Shown here: one piece after another, positions 7,757 to 49,574 of the stretch
Position numbering within the stretch: position 1 is the stretch's first letter
Layout of the letters: the number at the start of each line of letters is the position of its first letter
DNA from: Longimicrobium sp.
Lineage (GTDB): Bacteria; Gemmatimonadota; Gemmatimonadetes; Longimicrobiales; Longimicrobiaceae
Length of the DNA: 64,000 bases
Assembly: GCA_036389795.1 (NCBI GenBank)
Contig: DASVWD010000140.1
Span: 1-64,000, forward strand
Direction: 5' to 3'
Translations under genes and position numbers: made by a program
The notes under the pieces: model-generated
The model's database searches: none
Told to the model about the DNA's origin: nothing
The model's input: the letters and a program-made list of their open reading frames with translations, nothing else

Positions 7757-8074
7757 ATGGACACTGAGCCACTGAGCAAGCAGGTGATCGCCGAGCGGCT
7801 GGAGCAGGCCCGGGAGCAGATCCAGGCTCTCGGGGTGCGCCGCATCGCGCTCTTCGGCTCCTTCGCGCGAGGACAGGCCCACGCGGAGAGCGACGTCGAC
7901 CTGCTGGTCGAGTTCGATCCCGAGAAGAAGACGCTGGACAACTTCATGGCGCTCTCGTTCATGCTGGACGACCTGCTCCAGCGCCGCGCGGACGTGGTCA
8001 CCACGGAGGCGCTCAGCCCGTTCATCGGCCCCCACATCCTGCGCGAGGCGGAAGATGTCCTTCTCGCCGCTTGA
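7757..8074 (+). CDS. MNT-type minimal nucleotidyltransferase (antitoxin-like)
   Basis: A 105-residue protein with the nucleotidyltransferase signature ALFGSFARGQAHAESDVDLLVEF, split here as GSFARG followed by SDVDLLVE: the GSx10DxD pattern of minimal nucleotidyltransferases. Family members pair with HEPN RNases and inactivate them by adding AMP to a tyrosine. The downstream gene begins inside its 3' end exactly as in HEPN-MNT pairs, but only 12 HEPN-like codons survive before a repeat element. This is therefore an orphan antitoxin relic, probably still expressible. Confidence 0.85.
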   Translation: MDTEPLSKQVIAERLEQAREQIQALGVRRIALFGSFARGQAHAESDVDLLVEFDPEKKTLDNFMALSFMLDDLLQRRADVVTTEALSPFIGPHILREAEDVLLAA

Positions 8075-17439: not shown

Positions 17440-17550
17440 CGGGGAGCCCCCTCCCCGGCCTCGGCCGCTGCGCGGTGGAAGGGAGAGCTACGACGCCGCC
17501 CTCTTGCCGACTCCTCCCCGTCTAAACCCGGATTCGGAAGAACTGCAGGC

Positions 17551-17606
17551 CTCACGCAGAGTCAGCAGAGAAAACCCCTCCGCTGACTCTGCTGCCTCTG
17601 CGTGAG
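17551..17606. repeat. R2 hairpin
   Basis: CTCACGCAGAGTCAGCAGAG pairs with CTGACTCTGCTGCCTCTGCGTGAG-type sequence after a short loop. Arms are 9-base tandem units. Confidence 0.8.
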
Positions 17607-17950
17607 AAATCTCTTTTGTCGTATTGGCATCTTTTCTAGCTCTCGCACTTTCGTCTGCGCGCGCGCCGGCGAGCGCGGCCGGGAGCGGGAGGATGCGCGA
17701 GAGCGGGGGACGCATGGACCGTTCGGGGCGGGGAATGGCGGATCGGCGTGCATCGCGAAGTTTGGCCTCGGCCGCCGCACCCGCAAGAGAAACCATCGAC
17801 TGCCGCCCGTCGGCTCCGTCCGATCCCACTCCGCGTGGGATGCGACACCGTTGAGCGGAGCCCGCCGCCGCGGTTACATTGAACGGCGTGCCCGGAGCGC
17901 CGCGCGTCTCCCCTGCTCCGGTTCGTGGTCCCCTCCTCCCGCTCCTCCCG
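17607..17950. other. Leader region before the KAP NTPase gene
   Basis: No gene recognised. There are possible TTG/GTG starts in frame with the KAP gene at 17879 and 17888, but no ribosome binding site. I see no clear promoter. Confidence 0.4.
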
Positions 17951-20900
17951 ATGGACAATCCCGATTCCGTCCTCCTGAGCCGCATCACCGGCCTGCTGTA
18001 CCCCCCGGGCTCGACCGCTCCGCTCGATGCCATGGCGTGCCTGGTGCACCCGCTCGTGGCGGTGGTGCCGCGCGTCGCGATGAATGAGAAGGGGCCGCCA
18101 GGCACCGACTTCCTGTTCCACTTCGTCGCCGCGGAGTCGGACTGGCACGTCCCTGCCACGTATGTTGCCTCGGACGCGTGGCTCGCCGCGTTTCTGCTCG
18201 CGACTGCGTCTCCCGAGCCACTCGCCATCCTCCTCGACCTGCTGTCTCAGCGTCCACCCCCGCCGGGGTCGACCATCAATCTGCTGGCGCGCGACGACTC
18301 GGCGGCGGGGCTGGTGCCGCTCTCCGCGCGGTATGACGGAGTCACGGCTCACGGATTGGAAGGATTGGACGGACGGTTGAGGTTGACGATCCAGGAGCCG
18401 TCCTCGAACGCGTATCTGCTCGGCGCGCCTCTCGTCTACGGCGGAAAACTGATCGGCATCGCCGATACGCTCGCGCAGTCTTCGGGATCGAAGGGGGAGC
18501 TGCTGTACGCCCTCCCGGCCGAGCTGATCCGGAAGAGCCACGCCGTGGCGGAAGCGGTCAGCCGGGTGGAGAGAACCCCGGTCGCGGGCTCGTCCGGAGG
18601 CTCGTACGAGGCGCCCGGCCGAGTGGAGGGTTCCGCGGTCCAGGGCGAGATGGAGACCGCGAACGTGGGCGAGGCGCCGGAAACCATCGCCGTCCGGCGC
18701 AAGGCGCCCGCAGCGGCGAAGAAGGCGCCGAAGAAGAAGCCCACCGCACGCTCTCGCGCCCGCGGCGAGGCCGCCACTCCGCGGATCGACCAGGCCGCGT
18801 TCCTCCGCCGGCTCTCGCAGGGCGCGCGGCACGTGCTGTCGCACGCGGACGGGATGCGCCAGGCGCAGGGGCTCGACGCGCTGCACGTGGAGCACCTGGT
18901 CGGGGGAATCGCCTCGATGGACGGGGGTGTCGCGCAGCGCATGCTGGGCGCGCTCGAGCTGAACCGCGACGGCCTGCGGGAGCTGCTGGGGAAGGCCGCG
19001 CGGCACGAGCAGCCTTTCCCCGCGCCCGGCGGCTACGCGCCCTCCGTCCTGTCGGACCTTCCACCGTCCTCGGCGCACGCGGGGTATGCGTTCGCGTCGG
19101 CGGTGGCGGCGGCCGACGCGGAGAAGTCGGAGCGGATCGACGTGCGGCACCTGCTGGCGGGCGCGCTCGGCGTGGAGATGTGCGGCGTCGTCGATGCGCT
19201 GCGCGAGCGCGGGCTCACGCCCGAGCACGTGGGCGCGCGCGTCCCCGCGCTGCGGCTCTTCCGCGAGCCCGTGGGCGGCACCCGCTACCACGCCGACGAC
19301 CCCGAGGGCGAGGACGCGCTGGGGATCGAGCGCGAGGTGAAGGCCCTGGCCGCGGTGCTGGCCCGCAAGGACACGCCGCTCCCCCTGTCGCTGGGGCTGT
19401 TCGGCGACTGGGGGAGCGGCAAGAGCTTCTTCATGCACGCGCTGGAGGACGAGATCGCCGCGCTGGCGGACGAGGCGCGCGGCGACCCCGCCAGCCCCCA
19501 CCACTCGGGCATCGTCCAGCTCTGGTTCAACGCCTGGCACTACATCGACACCAACCTGTGGGCCAGCCTGGCCGCGGCCATCTTCCAGGGACTGGCCGCC
19601 GAGCTGGACCGGGGCGAGGGCGACCGGCGGAAGCGCGAGGAGCTGAAGGGCCGCATCCTGGCGCAGACCACGCACCTGGAGCAGGTGCGCGCCGACGCGC
19701 AGGAGCGGCGGCGCCGCCTGGACCGCGACCTCCGCGACGAGCAGGCCCGGCTGGAGCGGCTGGAGGCCGAGGAGCGCACCGTCCAGCGCAGCCTCACGGC
19801 CGGCGAGCTGCTGCGGGCCTCCTGGCGCGCCGTGGCCACCCACCCCACGGTGGAGAGCGCCGTCAAGGAGGCCAGCGAGAAGCTCGGCATCCCCCAGGCG
19901 AAGCTGGCCGTGGCCGACGCGCGGGCGCAGGTGCTGGAGTGGGGGCGCGTCCGCCGGTCGGCGTGGGGGCTCGGTCAGGCGCTCGCCGAGCGGAGCCGCG
20001 GCCGCCGCGCTGCGATTCTGGCGGGCCTGGTGCTGGGGCTCGCCGGCCTGTTCCTGATCTTCGACCTGGAAGTGGTTCCGGAGGTCGGAAACTGGCTGGA
20101 CCGCCTGCCCGGGATCGGCTCGCTGGCGGCGGGGATCGCCGCGCTGGCCGCGGGGCTTGCGACCGGGACGGCGGCGCTGGCGCCGGTGCTGAAGGCGGTG
20201 CGGCAGGCGGTCGGGGTGCTGGAGAAGGCGAAGGAGGAGAACCGGGCGCGGGTGGCGGCCGAGCGCGAGGAGCGGAAGAAGGCGCTGCTGGAGCACCAGG
20301 AGCGCATCAACCACGACAAGGCCGAGGCCGAGCAGCAGATCGACGCCGCCACGCGCGAGCTGCGGGAGCTGGAGCGGCAGCTGGCCGCGCTGCACCCCGA
20401 GCGCCGCATGCAGGACTTCGTCTCGGAGCGCCACGCCAGCACCGACTACACGCAGCACCTGGGCGTGATCGCCCGCGCCCGGCGCGACTTCGAGATGCTC
20501 ACCGAGCGGCTGGACGAGGTGCTGGAGGAGGAGCGGAAGGCGGCGGAGGAAGCCGGGGAGCCGGCCGGGGCGCGCCGGGCCGCCATCAGCCGCATCGTGC
20601 TGTACATCGACGACCTGGACCGCTGCCCCGAAGACAAGGTGGTGGACGTGCTCCAGGCCGTGCACCTGCTGCTGGCCTTCAAGCTGTTCGTGGTGGTGGT
20701 GGGCGTGGACTCGCGCTGGCTGCTGCACTCGCTCAAGCAGCACTCGGCGGTGTTCCGCGGCCGCCGCGCCGGGGCGGACGGCGAGGAGGGCGACGAGCTC
20801 AGCGTGGACGAGCGGGTGCACTGGCAGTCCACCCCGCTCAACTACCTGGAGAAGATCTTCCAGGTCCCCTTCACCCTGCGCCCGATGGCCGAGACCGGCT

Positions 20901-21868
20901 TCCACGAGCTGATCGAGAGCCTGGCGAACCCGGAGCAGGTAGACGGCGACCGGCACAAGCGTGAGCTACGGGAGCGCCTCCGGGCGGCGTCCGCGGAGCT
21001 CCGGCGGGCAAGGGCCGACCCGCAGGCGGCCGCGGCCGCGCAGGCCCGCGAGCAGGCGACCCAACAGGCCGTCGAACGGGGCCTTGGGAAAATCGCTGTT
21101 CCCGGCGAGGCTCAGGAGCAGCAATCGGAGAACCTGTTAGACCGGCTGGACCGCATCCTACTGCAGGTGGAAGCCGAGCAACCGGCCGCCGCTACGCGCG
21201 AACCGGAGCGACAGCAGCGCGCAACCGAAGCGGCGCGGCTGGAGATCGGCGCGGCGGAGCGCGAGTTCATGAAGCGGACGTACCGGCTGATCCCCACGCC
21301 GCGGGCGGCCAAGCGCTTCCTGAACGTCTACCGCCTGGTGCGCGGGGGGCTCGACGCGGACCAGCTCGAGGCGCTCGTCGGCAGTCCCGAGGCGGGCGAG
21401 TACCGGGCCGTGCTGCTGCTCCTGGCCATGCTCACCGGCTACCCGGCCGAGGCCACGGTGGTGCTGCGCGACCTGGTGGAGACCGAGCCCGACGACACCT
21501 GGTGGCACTACCTGGAGCGGCTGGAGCAGCGCCGCCGCGAGGCCGCGGAGGCGAACGACGACGCGGCGGACCCGTTCGCGGGGCTGGAGGGCGTCGAGGA
21601 GAGTCGCTGGGCCGACATGCTGCGGAAGCTGGAGGCCGTGCGCCCGTACCTCCCCGCCGGCCAGTCGTGCGAAGACTTCGTGAAGTGGGCGCCGGAGATC
21701 GCGCGCTACTCCTTCTACTCGGGCCGCGTGCTCTTCGGCCGCGAGCCGGGCGACGCGTCTTCCCGCCCCTCCCGGCCGTCCGCGCCGCCCGGCTCCGCTC
21801 CCCCCGCCGAAGCCGCGGAGGCAGTGCAGGTAGCCGTGGGGCCGCCGCCCGCCGCCTCACCCGCGTGA
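17951..21868 (+). CDS. KAP-family P-loop NTPase with ClpN-like and putative pseudo-trypsin N-terminal regions
   Basis: A 1305-residue protein from the ATG at 17951 (start uncertain). Residues about 1-200 resemble a trypsin-like beta fold: LLGAPLVYGGKLIGIAD is where active proteases have GNSGGP, but the nucleophile is missing. A Lys/Ala linker (AAKKAPKKKPTA) follows. Two related helical repeats at about 279-343 and 372-421 (LDALHVEHLVGGI, ERIDVRHLLAGAL) resemble the Clp N-domain. The KAP NTPase has Walker A GDWGSGKS (about 484), FNAWHY, two membrane segments (about 690-710 and 723-746), coiled coils and Walker B IVLYIDDLDRC (about 882). KAP ATPases are membrane-associated and frequent in conflict systems. 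A terminator follows, so it acts alone here. Confidence 0.82.
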   Translation: MDNPDSVLLSRITGLLYPPGSTAPLDAMACLVHPLVAVVPRVAMNEKGPPGTDFLFHFVAAESDWHVPATYVASDAWLAAFLLATASPEPLAILLDLLSQRPPPPGSTINLLARDDSAAGLVPLSARYDGVTAHGLEGLDGRLRLTIQEPSSNAYLLGAPLVYGGKLIGIADTLAQSSGSKGELLYALPAELIRKSHAVAEAVSRVERTPVAGSSGGSYEAPGRVEGSAVQGEMETANVGEAPETIAVRRKAPAAAKKAPKKKPTARSRARGEAATPRIDQAAFLRRLSQGARHVLSHADGMRQAQGLDALHVEHLVGGIASMDGGVAQRMLGALELNRDGLRELLGKAARHEQPFPAPGGYAPSVLSDLPPSSAHAGYAFASAVAAADAEKSERIDVRHLLAGALGVEMCGVVDALRERGLTPEHVGARVPALRLFREPVGGTRYHADDPEGEDALGIEREVKALAAVLARKDTPLPLSLGLFGDWGSGKSFFMHALEDEIAALADEARGDPASPHHSGIVQLWFNAWHYIDTNLWASLAAAIFQGLAAELDRGEGDRRKREELKGRILAQTTHLEQVRADAQERRRRLDRDLRDEQARLERLEAEERTVQRSLTAGELLRASWRAVATHPTVESAVKEASEKLGIPQAKLAVADARAQVLEWGRVRRSAWGLGQALAERSRGRRAAILAGLVLGLAGLFLIFDLEVVPEVGNWLDRLPGIGSLAAGIAALAAGLATGTAALAPVLKAVRQAVGVLEKAKEENRARVAAEREERKKALLEHQERINHDKAEAEQQIDAATRELRELERQLAALHPERRMQDFVSERHASTDYTQHLGVIARARRDFEMLTERLDEVLEEERKAAEEAGEPAGARRAAISRIVLYIDDLDRCPEDKVVDVLQAVHLLLAFKLFVVVVGVDSRWLLHSLKQHSAVFRGRRAGADGEEGDELSVDERVHWQSTPLNYLEKIFQVPFTLRPMAETGFHELIESLANPEQVDGDRHKRELRERLRAASAELRRARADPQAAAAAQAREQATQQAVERGLGKIAVPGEAQEQQSENLLDRLDRILLQVEAEQPAAATREPERQQRATEAARLEIGAAEREFMKRTYRLIPTPRAAKRFLNVYRLVRGGLDADQLEALVGSPEAGEYRAVLLLLAMLTGYPAEATVVLRDLVETEPDDTWWHYLERLEQRRREAAEANDDAADPFAGLEGVEESRWADMLRKLEAVRPYLPAGQSCEDFVKWAPEIARYSFYSGRVLFGREPGDASSRPSRPSAPPGSAPPAEAAEAVQVAVGPPPAASPA

Positions 21869-21878
21869 CGAGCCAGCC

Positions 21879-21910
21879 AGGCCCGCTCCCGCCACGTACG
21901 GAGCGGGCCT
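21879..21910 (+). terminator. Hairpin after the KAP gene
   Basis: AGGCCCGCTCC, 10-base loop, GGAGCGGGCCT. It lies 10 bases after the stop codon. No T-tract, but an 11-bp perfect stem. Confidence 0.6.
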
Positions 21911-21983
21911 CGCCGTCGTACGGGGCTTTGCGCGCGCCGCCGGTGCCGCCTTGCGCCGCCGCGGACCGCCTCCGAACTTCCCC

Positions 21984-22013
21984 CGCACTTTCGCACTTCG
22001 CACTTTCGCACTT
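21984..22013. repeat. R3-type repeat (GCACTTTC)
   Basis: Three to four units of GCACTTTC / GCACTTC immediately before the Rieske gene; it overlaps where its ribosome binding site would be expected. Confidence 0.6.
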
Positions 22014-22021
22014 GCGGTCAT

Positions 22022-22333
22022 ATGCCCGAACACGAAGTCACGCGCGTCACCGCCGTCCCCGAGGGGGAGGCGCGGGGGTTCACGGTGGGCGGGGAGGAGA
22101 TCGTCCTCTGCAACGTGGAAGGCGAGATCTACGCGCTGCACGGGATCTGCACGCACGAGGAGCTGCCGCTGGACGGCGGCGAGGTGGAGGACGGCGTGCT
22201 CACCTGCGAGTGGCACGGCGCCCAGTACGACGTCCGCACCGGCGAGGTCTGCGCCCTACCCGCCACACGCCCGATCAAGACCTTCGAGACGCGCGTCGAC
22301 GACGAGGGCCGCGTCTTCGTTACGATCGGCTGA
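22022..22333 (+). CDS. Rieske [2Fe-2S] ferredoxin
   Basis: A 103-residue soluble Rieske protein of the type that feeds electrons to non-haem iron dioxygenases. Cluster ligands are plain: CTHEELPL gives Cys-x-His at about 41-43, and CEWHGAQYD gives Cys-x-x-His at about 61-64. Length is typical of stand-alone ferredoxin components. No dioxygenase or reductase gene lies beside it; the thioredoxin-reductase-like gene 4 kb downstream is on the other strand. A weak start context (repeat DNA upstream, CATATG at the start) suggests it may be poorly translated or leaderless. Confidence 0.92.
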   Translation: MPEHEVTRVTAVPEGEARGFTVGGEEIVLCNVEGEIYALHGICTHEELPLDGGEVEDGVLTCEWHGAQYDVRTGEVCALPATRPIKTFETRVDDEGRVFVTIG

Positions 22334-22790: not shown

Positions 22791-22853
22791 GCGCAATCTG
22801 TGCGAACTCTCCTTCCTCTTCATTTTTCCCCTTCTCACGCTGGAGCCCGCCTG

Positions 22854-25800
22854 ATGCGCCGATATGGCCTGGTCGCGACATTCCTTCTCACCTCATTTCT
22901 CCTCTCCTGTCGCGACAACCAGCTCCTGCACCCAAACGCGATTTCCACATCGATCTCAATCCAACCTGATAGTGTCATCGTGGTCCGAGGTGCCGACGTG
23001 CAGTTGCAGGTCACCCTGACCGACCGTCAGGGTCGTGCAATGCCCAACGCCGCCATCAACTGGCGCTCGGCCGACACCACTGTCGCGACGGTCAGCCCTC
23101 TGGGGGTCCTGCGCGGGGTAGCGTTTGGTAGAACCCGCGTCACCGCATCTGTAGGTACGCTACGGACGGAAATTCCTGTAATCGTCCTCTATCCGGCTCG
23201 AGACTCGGCTCTCGTGACCGCGACCGATTCTGCATCGGTCGCGGTAGGGAACGGCACCATCGTAACCGTAGCAGCCGGGGCGTTCCCGACCGGTACCCTG
23301 CTGACACTCGAGCAGGAGGCCACCGCTCCCGATACATCTGACGGTCCGCCGCTCGGGCCGACGTTCCGTCTTCGCGTCTCGATCCCGTCAACCGCGTCGG
23401 CCTCGCTCCGCGCCGAGAGGCGTCCGAACCTGTCCACGATCGCTAACGCATTCCAGATTTCTACCATCCTGAATACCACGGCCAAGCTTTCTACGGACGT
23501 GGTGTCGCTTGTCATTCGTCCAGCGGCGGACGTCACGACGAAGACCATACTCAATGCCGTGGACGTGGCTGAGAAAACGGGAGAGTTTGTGAATGCTCGG
23601 TTTGCAGTACCATTTTCGAGCATCATCGAAGGTGCGACAGGAGTCGTTTACGATCTCGAGTTTTCCCCTGTTCATGCGACCGCGAATTGTGACTCCCAGC
23701 CATCAACCTGGGCATTTTACAATGTGCTGGGTTCGAGCACAGTTCCTAATACCGATAAGATCCCGCTTGTGCTTATCCACGGATTCCAAGTGGACAAACG
23801 CTCGTGCCAGGCCGTTCAGAACTTTCACCCCGAGGAGGATACCTGGGCGCCGTTCATCCAGGCGTTCAAAACGAGCGACCTTGCGAATCGGTACGAACTC
23901 TGGGTGTATCGGTATCCGACCTTTTACTCGATCGAGAACTCGGCCGCGAGATTATCGACATTCATCAACAGCAAGTTACCCAACCGGGAGACTGTGCTCA
24001 TTGGACATAGTATGGGCGGACTGGTTGGCGCCTATTACGTCGGCGTGACGCAGAGTAATCGCGTCCATCAATTGATTACGCTGGCAACACCGTTCCGTGG
24101 AAGTCCGGCGGCAGTACGGAACTTGACGAGTTTTCCATCGTTTGATGCTATGCAAGAATGCATGGGCACTCAGTACCTGCTCGGAGCAATTAGTGCATTT
24201 GATATAGTCGCGGGAAATTTCTTCATTGGCACAGAAGGCGGTCGTGAATTGAATCCGAACTCAGCCTTCTACACGGAGCAACTGGACCGTGTGAGTGCGC
24301 GATTTACACCGAAGCTCTGGTCGCTTCACGGAACCACCTCTTGGAGCAATGTATTGAGTGGATCTGGCGATGCACTCCTTATGTTTTTCGGATGCTACAT
24401 TCTTGAAAAAACCGGTGAGGAGAACGATGGCCTGGTCACGATCAGCAGCGCTGAGCACTACGGACCGGCCGCCCTCCCGAACTGGGAGAGACACGACCAC
24501 TACCAGATGGCCGGCGCAAGCGATGTAATCGACAGCGTGCTCCGGCATCTCTCGCTTCTCTCCAGGGAAGTTCCAGCAAAGCCGAAGAGTCTTTCGGTTG
24601 CCGCCGGCGACAACCAGATTGCCCGCCCCGGCCAGCAGCTTCCCATCCCAATCGCCGTGCAGGTCTCGGATGTTGCGGGGGTGCCTGTTCCGGGGGTCAC
24701 GGTACAGTTCCAGGTGACTTCGGGTGGCGGCTCGCTCGCGGCGAGTGCCGCTGGGGTGACCGATACATCCGGCATCGCCTGGGCCACGTGGACGCTGGGC
24801 CTAACTCCGGGGCCACAGACTGCAACGGCATCTGTGGCCGGCCTTCTCGGCTCCCCCGTGACGTTCAATGCGACGGCCAGCGAGGTCGTCACGCCCACCA
24901 TTCGTGCCCAGGTAAGCGCCGGGAATGACCATGCCTGTGCGATTACCAGCGCGGGACAGGCATACTGCTGGGGTAGCAACGTGATCGGCAGCCTCGGCAA
25001 TGACAACGCAACGGATGGCTCGACGCCGAGCAGGGTTTCGGGCAATTATACCTTCGCGTCGATTTCTGCCGGCGGGGATGGCGCCGGCTCGGGGCAGTAC
25101 GAACATTCGTGTGGAGTGACGACCGGCGGTACCGGACTGTGCTGGGGCAGTTCCACCTGGGGCGAGCTTGGCACCACGGTCTCCACCTGCGGATTCCAGA
25201 AGCAAGGTGCCTGCGTTCCCGTTCCCGTGGAAGGGAATCTCGAATTCAGCGCGATCGCCGCCGGGAACCTGCACACCTGCGGCTTAACTCGTGATGGTGC
25301 GGCGTACTGCTGGGGCTACGGCGGATTCGGTGCGCTGGGCACGGGGAGCACGGTTTTCACTGCGTTCACTCCACAGGCAGTCGTCGGGGGACTCACGTTC
25401 AAGTCGATCGATGCAGCCCGACACTGGACGTGTGCCCTGACACCTGCCGGTGCGGCCTACTGCTGGGGTGGCACGGGTGGGGGGCTGGGGAGCCTGACCC
25501 CGGGACAGGGTTGCAACGGTACCTGCGTTCCTCAGCCAACGCTGGTCGCGGGCGGACACACGTTCAAGGCAATCACCGTCGGCGGAAGCTTCTCCTGCGG
25601 AGTCACTACGGATGGAGACGCTTACTGCTGGGGAGGAAATACCTGGGGTCAGCTCGGTGACGGAACCACGACCGATTCCCCGCTCCCCGTCCGGGTGACC
25701 GGCGGACTGAAGTTCACCGCGATCGACGCCGGGGCCGAGCACGTCTGCGCAATCACTGCCGCGGGCGCTGCTTACTGCTGGGGCGCGGGACTCGCCGGCA

Positions 25801-26054
25801 ACCTGGGCAATGGCGGTATGGTGGAGAGCCACGTTCCGGTTCCGGTCAGTGGTGGTTTCAGGTTCGTCCAGATCAGCGCGGGGACGGGTTTCACGTGCGG
25901 CACAACCACGGACGCCAAGATCTACTGTTGGGGGTGGGACAGTTCCGGCAAGCTCGGCAATGGAAGCGCGGGTTCCAGCACGATCCCCGTATTCGTCCTG
26001 GATGGGAGTGTCGGCGCTAACGCTCGAGCATCGAGGCGAGCGACCGGACGCTAA
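22854..26054 (+). CDS. Lipoprotein with Ig-like domains, alpha/beta-hydrolase (lipase) and RCC1 repeats
   Basis: A 1066-residue lipoprotein. The lipobox signal peptide is MRRYGLVATFLLTSFLLSC. A BIG2-type Ig domain spans about 30-115. The lipase-like alpha/beta hydrolase at about 300-560 has IPLVLIHGF (oxyanion strand), nucleophile Ser in IGHSMGGLVG (about 382), probable Asp in ENDGLV and His in RHDHYQM. A second Ig-like domain (about 580-680) is followed by seven RCC1-type beta-propeller repeats, each ending in YCWG. It probably sits on the outer membrane or cell surface. G+C is much lower than its neighbours (28 of 60 bases at 24121-24180 by hand count), and it lies between two copies of the reductase 3' end, so it was probably acquired. 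Confidence 0.88.
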   Translation: MRRYGLVATFLLTSFLLSCRDNQLLHPNAISTSISIQPDSVIVVRGADVQLQVTLTDRQGRAMPNAAINWRSADTTVATVSPLGVLRGVAFGRTRVTASVGTLRTEIPVIVLYPARDSALVTATDSASVAVGNGTIVTVAAGAFPTGTLLTLEQEATAPDTSDGPPLGPTFRLRVSIPSTASASLRAERRPNLSTIANAFQISTILNTTAKLSTDVVSLVIRPAADVTTKTILNAVDVAEKTGEFVNARFAVPFSSIIEGATGVVYDLEFSPVHATANCDSQPSTWAFYNVLGSSTVPNTDKIPLVLIHGFQVDKRSCQAVQNFHPEEDTWAPFIQAFKTSDLANRYELWVYRYPTFYSIENSAARLSTFINSKLPNRETVLIGHSMGGLVGAYYVGVTQSNRVHQLITLATPFRGSPAAVRNLTSFPSFDAMQECMGTQYLLGAISAFDIVAGNFFIGTEGGRELNPNSAFYTEQLDRVSARFTPKLWSLHGTTSWSNVLSGSGDALLMFFGCYILEKTGEENDGLVTISSAEHYGPAALPNWERHDHYQMAGASDVIDSVLRHLSLLSREVPAKPKSLSVAAGDNQIARPGQQLPIPIAVQVSDVAGVPVPGVTVQFQVTSGGGSLAASAAGVTDTSGIAWATWTLGLTPGPQTATASVAGLLGSPVTFNATASEVVTPTIRAQVSAGNDHACAITSAGQAYCWGSNVIGSLGNDNATDGSTPSRVSGNYTFASISAGGDGAGSGQYEHSCGVTTGGTGLCWGSSTWGELGTTVSTCGFQKQGACVPVPVEGNLEFSAIAAGNLHTCGLTRDGAAYCWGYGGFGALGTGSTVFTAFTPQAVVGGLTFKSIDAARHWTCALTPAGAAYCWGGTGGGLGSLTPGQGCNGTCVPQPTLVAGGHTFKAITVGGSFSCGVTTDGDAYCWGGNTWGQLGDGTTTDSPLPVRVTGGLKFTAIDAGAEHVCAITAAGAAYCWGAGLAGNLGNGGMVESHVPVPVSGGFRFVQISAGTGFTCGTTTDAKIYCWGWDSSGKLGNGSAGSSTIPVFVLDGSVGANARASRRATGR

Positions 26055-26198: not shown

Positions 26199-26424
26199 TC
26201 ACTCGCGCAGCACCCGGTGGACGAAGGCGACGGCGATGGAGCCCTCGCCGACCGCCGAGGCCACGCGCTTGATGTTGCCTCCCCGCACGTCGCCGACCGC
26301 GAAGACGCCGGGGAGGCTCGTCTCCAGGAGGTACGGGGCCCGGGCGAGCGGCCACTCCGCCTCGGCCAGGTCGTCGGGCGTCAGGTCGGGCCCCGTCTTG
26401 ATGAACCCGTTCGCGTCGAGCGCC
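26199..26424 (-). repeat. Direct repeat copy 2 (native 3' end of the reductase gene)
   Basis: The intact partner of 22490-22714. It includes the stop codon and last 75 codons of the reductase gene. The two copies share orientation and bracket 3.5 kb of foreign-looking DNA. Confidence 0.9.
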
Positions 26425-27866
26425 AGGCAGCCGTCCAGCCACTGCGTGCCGGGGACGGCGCCGGTCATCACGAACACGTGCCGGATGTCGCGCGTCTCGA
26501 CGCTGCCGCTCCGCCCGTCGCGCCAGCGGACGCGCTCCAGCTGGTCGCCGCCCTCCAGCGCCTCGATCTCCGACCGCGTCCGCAGCTCGATGACGGGGCT
26601 CTGCTCGATGCGGCGGATCAGGTAGCGCGACATGCTCTCCGCCAGGCCGCCCGAGCGGACCAGCATGTGCACGCGCCGGGCGGTCTGCGCCAGGAAGACG
26701 GCGGCCTGGCCGGCCGAGTTGCCGCCGCCCACCACCACCACCTCCTCGCCCCGGCAGAGCTGCGCCTCGATGAAGGTGGCGCCGTAGTACACCCCCGCGC
26801 CCTCGAAGCGCGCCAGGTTCTCGATCTCCGGCCGGCGGTACTCCGCGCCCGTGGCGATGATCACCGTGCGCGCCGGCACCCGCCCGCCGTCGTCGGTCAC
26901 GATGGCGTACGGCATCCGCTCGCACGAGAGCTGGCGGGCGGTATTGGCGATCGCCACGCGCGCCCCGAACTTCTCCGCCTGCGCGTACGCGCGGCCCGCC
27001 AGCTCCTGCCCCGAGATCCCCGTGGGGAAGCCCAGGTAGTTCTCGATCCGGGAGCTGGAGCCCGCCTGCCCGCCCGGCGAGCTGGACTCCAGCACCAGCA
27101 CGTCGAGGCCCTCCGACGCGCCGTACACCGCCGCCGCCAGCCCCGCCGGCCCCGCGCCCACGATCACCAGGTCGCGCACCTGCGTGGGGTCGATGGCGTC
27201 GTTGAAGCCCAGGCAGTCGGCGATCTCGCGGTTGCTGGGGTTGCGCAGCACCACCTGGCCGCGGCAGATCAGCACCGGCACGTCCGCCACGCTGACGCCG
27301 AAGCGGTCCAGCAGCTCCTGCACGTCGGCGTCGCGCTCCAGGTCGATGTACGTGTGCGGGTGGCCGTTGCGCGTGAGGAACTCCTTCACCCGCAGCGTGC
27401 CCCGCGAATGGCTCGACCCCACCAGCACCACGTCGCCGAAGCCGTGCGCGAACAGCTCCACCCGGCGCAGGATGAAGGCGCGCATCAGGATCTCGCCCAG
27501 CTCGCCGTCGGTCTGCACCAGCGCCAGCAGGCAGTCGTGGTCCAGCTCCACCACCTCGCCCGGCTCGCTCACCCGCGCCCGGGCCAGCGCGCGGCGCCCC
27601 GAGAGCATGTTGGCCTCGCCGGTGAAGCTCCCCGGCCCGTGGGTGACGATGAGCTCCCCCGAAGGCCGCAGGATCTCCACCCGGCCGGCCGTCACCACGA
27701 ACAGCGGGATCGCCGGGTCCCCCACGTCGAAGAGGACGTCTCCAGGCTCGACCGCCCGCACCCGCCCGTGCGCCGCGATGCGCGCGATCTGCTCGGGCGT
27801 GAGCGTGGGGAACATGCGCTCCATCTGCACCCCGGGCGTCACGACGGACAGGGACGTTTCGACCAT
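26199..27866 (-). CDS. cNMP-binding / thioredoxin-reductase-like FAD oxidoreductase
   Basis: A 555-residue fusion. A cyclic-nucleotide-binding domain spans about 15-130 (GDVLFDVGDPAIPLFVV, GSFTGEANML). A glutaredoxin-like domain at about 143-215 (VVLVGSSHSRGTL) lacks its CxxC. The NAD(P)H/FAD reductase has FAD motif IVGAGPAGLAAAVYGAS (about 232) and NADP motif VVVVGGGNSAGQAA (about 378). The redox CxxC of true thioredoxin reductases (CATC) is replaced by GATF (about 360), so it cannot reduce thioredoxin by the usual disulfide relay. This domain order recurs as a known family of unclear substrate. The start Met precedes ETSLSVVTPGV. Confidence 0.9.
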   Translation of the reverse strand: MVETSLSVVTPGVQMERMFPTLTPEQIARIAAHGRVRAVEPGDVLFDVGDPAIPLFVVTAGRVEILRPSGELIVTHGPGSFTGEANMLSGRRALARARVSEPGEVVELDHDCLLALVQTDGELGEILMRAFILRRVELFAHGFGDVVLVGSSHSRGTLRVKEFLTRNGHPHTYIDLERDADVQELLDRFGVSVADVPVLICRGQVVLRNPSNREIADCLGFNDAIDPTQVRDLVIVGAGPAGLAAAVYGASEGLDVLVLESSSPGGQAGSSSRIENYLGFPTGISGQELAGRAYAQAEKFGARVAIANTARQLSCERMPYAIVTDDGGRVPARTVIIATGAEYRRPEIENLARFEGAGVYYGATFIEAQLCRGEEVVVVGGGNSAGQAAVFLAQTARRVHMLVRSGGLAESMSRYLIRRIEQSPVIELRTRSEIEALEGGDQLERVRWRDGRSGSVETRDIRHVFVMTGAVPGTQWLDGCLALDANGFIKTGPDLTPDDLAEAEWPLARAPYLLETSLPGVFAVGDVRGGNIKRVASAVGEGSIAVAFVHRVLRE

Positions 27867-28338
27867 GGCGATCCTCGCTCGGAAGGCGTCCGGGAGCGCG
27901 CGTCGGGCGGCCGCGCTCCACCTCGGCCGTAGCTTAGGCGCCTCGCCGGCTCGCGGGAAGCCCGTCGTGCGGCCCCACGCCGGCAGACGCCGCCGCGGAT
28001 CCGGACGATCGGTGGGTGTGCGCCGTCGTGCCGAGCCTGAGGCCCGGGGCATACGGAACCGGCCTCCGCACGAACGGCGGCAGGGCTGGAGGATCTTCTC
28101 GCCTCGCCGGGCGCGGCGGCGTCGTGGAGCCGTCCACGCCCGTCCCTGGACATTGCGTCGACTGAAGAAGATGCTTGTGCGGGCGGGAGCCTGCGCTCAT
28201 GTATTGCCTGTCCGCGCAGGTCCGTCCTGGGCGGACGAAGGTGGAGCTCGCCGAACGGGCGCCGCGCCGATCCGGTCGAATTCAGCGGCCGCTTCGACTG
28301 CGGCCGATTCTCATCTCCTCCACGGGAGGGCCCTCCCC
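27867..28338. other. Divergent intergenic region
   Basis: No gene, hairpin family or repeat recognised in 470 bases between the divergent reductase and LysM genes. It presumably holds both promoters, but I see no convincing -35/-10 pair. Confidence 0.4.
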
Positions 28339-43606: not shown

Positions 43607-43628
43607 AGCGTCCGGCAGACGAATTTTT

Positions 43629-43689
43629 CTCACGCAGAGTCAGCGGAGTCAGCAGAGAACCCTCCGCTGGCTCTGCTGACTCTACGTGA
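43629..43689. repeat. R2 hairpin
   Basis: CTCACGCAGAGTCAGCGGAG… with complement GGCTCTGCTGACTCTACGTGA; 9-base periodic arms, loop CCCTC. It follows the secreted-protein gene. Confidence 0.8.
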
Positions 43690-49462: not shown

Positions 49463-49493
49463 ACGGGACCACGAAAGCTCGGTAAAGACTCTT

Positions 49494-49574
49494 CTCACGC
49501 AGAGGAAGCAGAGTTAGCAGAGAACACATCGCTCGCGGTGTTCCTCTCTGCTACCTCTGCTTCCTCTGCGTGAG
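49494..49574. repeat. R2 hairpin
   Basis: CTCACGCAGAGGAAGCAGAG… pairs with CTCTGCTTCCTCTGCGTGAG; 9-base units, 15-base loop. Confidence 0.8.

Follow-up and report, generated by a model that had tools for sequence, protein, structure and literature searches.

A KAP NTPase of Longimicrobium sp. with a pseudo-trypsin-like and ClpN front end: candidate for a one-gene immune receptor

Background

KAP NTPases recur in phage defence, e.g. as Tmn, QatA and PifA. In a stretch of 64,000 nucleotides of Longimicrobium sp. DNA (contig DASVWD010000140.1, positions 1 to 64,000; here called the window), the gene at 17951-21868 encodes a KAP NTPase that carries an unusual front end, and the question it raises is whether such a protein, encoded by one gene, could act both as sensor and as effector in a conflict between host and phage. 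Our data suggest that the front end combines a trypsin-like domain that has lost its catalytic triad with a ClpN domain, that the gene is a lone accessory insertion, and that related KAP proteins carry other front ends. A clade in which the NTPase is constant while the fronts (dead protease, ClpN, TIR, WD40) are exchanged suggests which part of these proteins senses.

Tmn is a KAP component of an anti-phage system (PMC11846954), and QatA is an anti-phage KAP protein that binds DNA, apparently assembles into heptamers or octamers, and influences the range of phages (PMC13279940). KAP can substitute for STAND in EAD conflict systems (PMC8195603), and conflict systems also make use of inactive trypsin domains and of ClpN repeats carried by vWA proteins (PMC7159879).

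Results

The KAP NTPase and its closest homologue

Read from the sequence, the frame is open throughout its 1305 codons, with an in-frame TTG at 17879 upstream, and the GC content at third codon positions (GC3) of 0.93 is of coding type. A genome scan found the gene once in its own genome. The Pfam profile PF07693 (KAP_NTPase) matched the protein with 81.1 bits against a cut-off of 20 (E 1.1e-22). Both Walker motifs are intact and retained in all seven proteins compared, and the two hydrophobic segments, with hydropathy peaks at residues 688 and 729, fall between them, as is the case in KAP proteins; comparable peaks are present in the relatives examined. An earlier note, made from the letters alone, had described a KAP P-loop ATPase with two membrane segments in the NTPase domain, and these data agree with it. 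The same note held that the gene is closed by its own terminator, which we could not confirm: a terminator scan gave none, and the GC hairpin 3' of the stop codon lacks a T-run and folds no better than shuffled sequences.

A genome-wide scan revealed one homologue with the same layout, at L003:9500-12766, where L003 denotes a stretch of the Thermoanaerobaculia metagenome-assembled genome JADGNZ010000020.1. It aligns to window residues 277-1261 with an identity of about 35-39% (E 6e-135), and N-terminal identity is low. With the window protein it shares a degenerate trypsin-like domain, the ClpN domain, a KAP domain interrupted by membrane segments and the C-terminal motif, but its N-terminus and linker are shorter and its neighbours are different. 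Directly upstream of it, at L003:8363-9187, lie short tandem repeats of NVARELG units.

The N-terminal pseudo-trypsin-like domain

The N-terminus of the window protein had no match in Pfam and only chance matches among the PDB sequences. AlphaFold models of window residues 1-440 and of the first 172 residues of the homologue, computed from an alignment of these two sequences, reached predicted local distance difference test (pLDDT) values of 37.7 and 35.9 and gave no Foldseek match; the low confidence is due to too few relatives. An HtrA profile scored a marginal 6.6 bits on the window protein and was not significant on the homologue.

Profile searches in the reverse direction point to the HtrA family. 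A profile made from the N-termini of the window protein and its homologue was run on 395 genomes of the phylum in six frames. It gave two non-self matches (E 8e-4 each), both to HtrA/Do serine proteases and both aligned at the GNSGGPLV ... FAIP region. At a threshold of E 0.001 per genome, a search of 395 genomes should yield about 0.4 matches by chance, so that the weight rests on both matches being HtrA. When the profile was run on 2400 open reading frames, the first 20 non-self matches all came from HtrA-type protease loci (the one without a protease motif tag is from locus L039, collected as Trypsin_2), and the 27 tagged proteases outranked the remaining frames (Mann-Whitney P 5e-19). This set is enriched in HtrA since such loci had been collected, including both matches from the 395 genomes, and the enrichment alone would not rank proteases first.

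At the positions of the triad (His57/Asp102/Ser195) the window protein has Tyr, Asn and Leu and the homologue Gly, Asn and Gly (or Lys, the register at Ser195 being uncertain in this protein). Since all three residues are replaced, the N-terminal domain is, judged by its sequence, a pseudo-protease with trypsin kinship. The suggestion that a serine-protease-like region without its nucleophile precedes the NTPase is thus supported both by the ranking of HtrA and by the loss of Ser195, and it extends to the other two triad residues. GC3 is 0.85 in codons 1-240 and 0.95 in the remainder of the gene (P 5e-7), which is compatible with a separately acquired front end.

The ClpN domain

A profile built on ClpC/ClpB N-domains of related genomes gave 31.7 bits for window residues 276-440 (E 3.7e-8, a score that no shuffle among the 408 scored equalled), and hhalign aligned the two over 130 columns (P 3e-8). 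The homologue scored 42.3 bits with this profile. Pfam Clp_N (PF02861) was borderline on the window fragment (20.8 bits versus a cut-off of 20.7) and gave 40.8 bits on the homologue. The likeness of the two helical repeats to Clp N-domains is therefore statistically secure, as is the KAP assignment, and together the repeats make one complete ClpN domain.

In ClpC, the N-domain residues E32 and E106 form the phospho-arginine pockets of repeats 1 and 2 (PMC12583610). In the alignment, E314 of the window protein corresponds to E32, i.e. the Glu of the repeat-1 pocket is retained, while R399 replaces E106; Arg is found at this position also in the relatives P0002, P0006 and P0007. The window protein thus has one of the two pocket Glu residues of ClpC, and the presence of both marks ClpC-type function and not the ClpN fold. 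The N-domain of ClpC is a brake on its own ATPase, and ligand at the pockets releases the resting state (PMC12583610); by analogy, it is plausible that ClpN acts as a brake also here. The pocket change offers a specific target for point mutation. A separate small ClpN-containing protein at G002:C26:3659-4060 (open frame of 318 aa) also has Arg-His instead of Glu-His in repeat 2.

Exchange of front ends among KAP relatives

The full pseudo-trypsin/ClpN/KAP layout was found in none of the 394 other genomes of the phylum sample. Close KAP relatives are present in only two of them, one from the genus and one from the family of the window genome, and the stretches that carry them are referred to as L028 and L029. 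Both proteins begin with another front module of approximately 290 residues; a degenerate ClpN half (hhalign P 6e-5) comes next, and then KAP. On plasmids, the KAP of Sinorhizobium sp. RAC02 has a TIR front, that of Pseudonocardia sp. DSM 110487 is preceded by 11 WD40 repeats, and those of Agrobacterium sp. T29 and Rhizobium sp. CC1099 have uncharacterised fronts. The NTPase identity among the seven proteins compared is 28-41%, with one pair at 59%. A constant NTPase with exchanged front ends is a pattern typical of immune receptors. For the TIR-fronted forms, loss of NAD would be a readable output.

Two assignments made by eye in these proteins are not claimed: an McrB-like N-terminus in P0006 and P0007 (motif HLxxPDxxEPIAxxxHKRxI), for which Pfam, PADLOC and PDB gave no support, and ClpN in the Agrobacterium and Rhizobium proteins (P0004, P0005), which was not significant.

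Insertion site and genomic neighbourhoods

The gene is flanked by genes for an M20 peptidase, DinB-family, HNH and Rieske proteins and other ordinary genes; an M61 peptidase is also encoded in the window. Two sister genomes have the M20 and Rieske genes next to each other, separated by only 0.4-0.7 kb of unrelated DNA, and homology to these genomes ends at 17445, six bases past the M20 stop codon, and resumes at 22022, at the Rieske start. Because the site is empty in the sister genomes, the window gene is a solitary accessory insertion, recent or easily lost, in an otherwise stable part of the chromosome, and it is indeed the single gene that it had been taken for. Just upstream of it, within the inserted stretch, is a palindromic repeat of a family built on CTCTGCGTGAG, with three partial copies in the window (17551-17606, 43628-43645 and 49493-49510; 0.13 expected). 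A search of phage records gave no match.

Several relatives on plasmids have other surroundings. The Sinorhizobium TIR-KAP gene adjoins genes for DUF4062-SIR2, DarT/macro and SIR2, the Pseudonocardia WD40-KAP gene adjoins Fic/antitoxin, and another of these plasmid relatives adjoins RelE and a restriction subunit. The Agrobacterium gene adjoins VapBC and an integrase and overlaps a downstream DUF2971 gene. On the Rhizobium plasmid (L006:4717-10465) the reading frames of KAP and a SIR2-type gene overlap and a nucleoside deoxyribosyltransferase gene follows, possibly an undescribed three-gene defence operon.

Comparison with known conflict systems

QatA, PifA and Tmn share the KAP NTPase core with the window protein, which has weak profile matches to QatA and PifA. 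It is not QatA (NF041923; 66.8 bits versus a cut-off of 600, and no qatBCD neighbours), and PifA was rejected on score. Unlike the window protein, none of the three is reported to have pseudo-trypsin or ClpN fronts in the literature examined. The MoxR-vWA and STAND/EAD systems likewise use inactive trypsin domains and ClpN repeats and, in some cases, KAP NTPases (PMC7159879, PMC8195603), but these systems are multi-gene; among the ten window open reading frames scanned around the gene there was none for vWA, MoxR or VMAP/iSTAND, and no EAD was recognised at the gene. The plasmid KAP proteins of Sinorhizobium, Pseudonocardia, Agrobacterium and Rhizobium differ in their front ends and in having defence or toxin-antitoxin surroundings. 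Pseudo-trypsin, ClpN and KAP in one chain are not described in the accessible literature, which agrees with the earlier note, whose author knew of no described system with this domain order. The window protein is probably a variant layout of a KAP conflict ATPase in which the order pseudo-trypsin/ClpN/KAP is new.

Discussion

The most likely role of the protein is that of an immune receptor, self-contained or switch-type, in which the front end senses and the membrane-linked KAP NTPase is the output. The narrower proposal, that the window gene is a self-contained accessory receptor of KAP type in one gene, we hold to have an even chance. In this proposal the variable front end, i.e. the dead protease fold and ClpN, would be the sensing and autoinhibitory part. 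It would probably bind a phage protein, peptide or inhibitor that normally meets a host protease or Clp unfoldase; the ligand would free the resting state held by ClpN, NTP-driven KAP assembly at the inner membrane would follow, and the membrane hairpins or the assembly would halt growth or abort infection. Of this, the data show the domains, the intact Walker motifs, the lost triad, the swaps of front ends on one type of KAP NTPase and the arrival as a lone accessory gene; the ligand, the autoinhibition by ClpN, the oligomerisation, the membrane output and the phage target are what we infer. The conflict reading is strengthened because front ends swap within the clade and some plasmid relatives sit in defence neighbourhoods. 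We put forward, tentatively and as somewhat doubtful, a family of immune receptors that each consist of a single membrane-anchored KAP protein and exchange their sensors as NLRs do; here a protease mimic would be the decoy for phage protease inhibitors or substrates, coupled through a ClpN brake whose second ligand pocket is charge-reversed. If true, the form with the pseudo-protease would represent a decoy receptor in bacteria.

Several observations weigh against a one-gene immune receptor. Front-end swapping is known also in non-immune signalling ATPases. No defence gene lies beside the window gene among the ten open reading frames scanned, none was seen on reading of the frames at the Thermoanaerobaculia, L028 and L029 loci, and the window protein has no close match to the defence families of PADLOC or NCBIfam. 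In addition, Qat defence persists in part when QatA is deleted, so that the effector role does not have to fall to a KAP protein (PMC13279940). This partial dispensability also favours an alternative in which the KAP protein acts as NTPase switch within a conflict system: it would sense, assemble and recruit, in trans, a killing enzyme encoded elsewhere. In line with such a switch, Pfam recognised no catalytic effector domain in the protein, and in the two rhizobial relatives the KAP gene overlaps the next gene downstream (DUF2971, or SIR2 followed by the nucleoside deoxyribosyltransferase), which is a candidate for the real effector. However, no partner gene is present in the window, L003, L028 or L029, in each of which the gene stands alone, and the empty site in the sister genomes shows that the window gene arrived without partners; we therefore consider recruitment in trans unlikely. 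As to the sensor-effector proposed in the earlier note, the conflict role agrees with the domains, the lone accessory insertion and the front-end swaps in the clade, whereas its self-containment is put in doubt by the lack of defence genes nearby and by the overlapping rhizobial genes.

That the protein has no immune role, and instead serves proteostasis or envelope stress as a membrane ATPase, with ClpN and the dead protease gathering damaged proteins or adaptors that KAP organises at the membrane, is suggested by the nature of the modules, as ClpN and HtrA-type domains are proteostasis modules, and by the housekeeping neighbours, the M61 and M20 peptidases among them. The very patchy distribution, the lone accessory insertion, the relatives in which TIR or WD40 takes the place of this front end and the defence-rich neighbourhoods on plasmids make this improbable. 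A decaying or chance fusion, in which the first 200 residues are a functionless relic before a working ClpN-KAP, would account for the reduced GC3 and weakly conserved sequence of codons 1-240 and for the low N-terminal identity to the homologue. Yet another phylum retains this order with a trypsin-like domain that has diverged independently, the reading frame is uninterrupted and the Asp102 position is occupied by Asn in both copies, and we regard a relic as very improbable.

Feature coordinates and other observations

Table 1. Positions of the features discussed (window coordinates unless a stretch is named)
Feature	Position	Strand	Basis
Whole gene, 1305 aa: putative pseudo-trypsin, linker, ClpN, KAP NTPase with inserted membrane segments	17951..21868	+	Open reading frame and profile scans
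Putative pseudo-trypsin-like domain, about residues 19-200; His57 to Tyr, Asp102 to Asn, Ser195 to Leu157	18005..18550	+	Alignment to HtrA
Low-complexity Ala/Lys/Pro/Glu-rich linker, residues 201-277	18551..18781	+	Sequence
ClpN domain, two repeats, residues 278-435	18782..19255	+	Profile and hhalign
Walker A GDWGSGKS, residues 485-492	19403..19426	+	Alignment
Hydrophobic membrane segment 1, residues 688-706, within NTPase domain	20012..20068	+	Hydropathy
Hydrophobic membrane segment 2, residues 729-747	20135..20191	+	Hydropathy
Walker B VLYIDDLDRC, residues 883-892	20597..20626	+	Alignment
Conserved C-terminal KAP motif PTPRAAKRFLNVYRLVR, about residues 1116-1132	21296..21346	+	Comparison with relatives
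M20-Rieske interval DNA absent from sister genome with empty site	17446..22021		Sister-genome comparison
Near-perfect palindromic intergenic repeat, 20-nt arms 95% complementary	17551..17606		Repeat scan
Module of ~290 residues before related KAP proteins	L028:6366-7300 and L029:7749-8600		Not recognised by any library

Elsewhere in the window, 7757-8071 (+) encodes a protein with an MNT antitoxin-type nucleotidyltransferase domain (6.8e-15), with no HEPN partner frame directly downstream. A secreted-looking protein with bacterial Ig-like domains, an alpha/beta hydrolase and an RCC1 propeller is encoded at 22800-26051 (+), and at 26199-28052 (-) a cyclic-nucleotide-binding domain is fused to a thioredoxin-reductase-like oxidoreductase.

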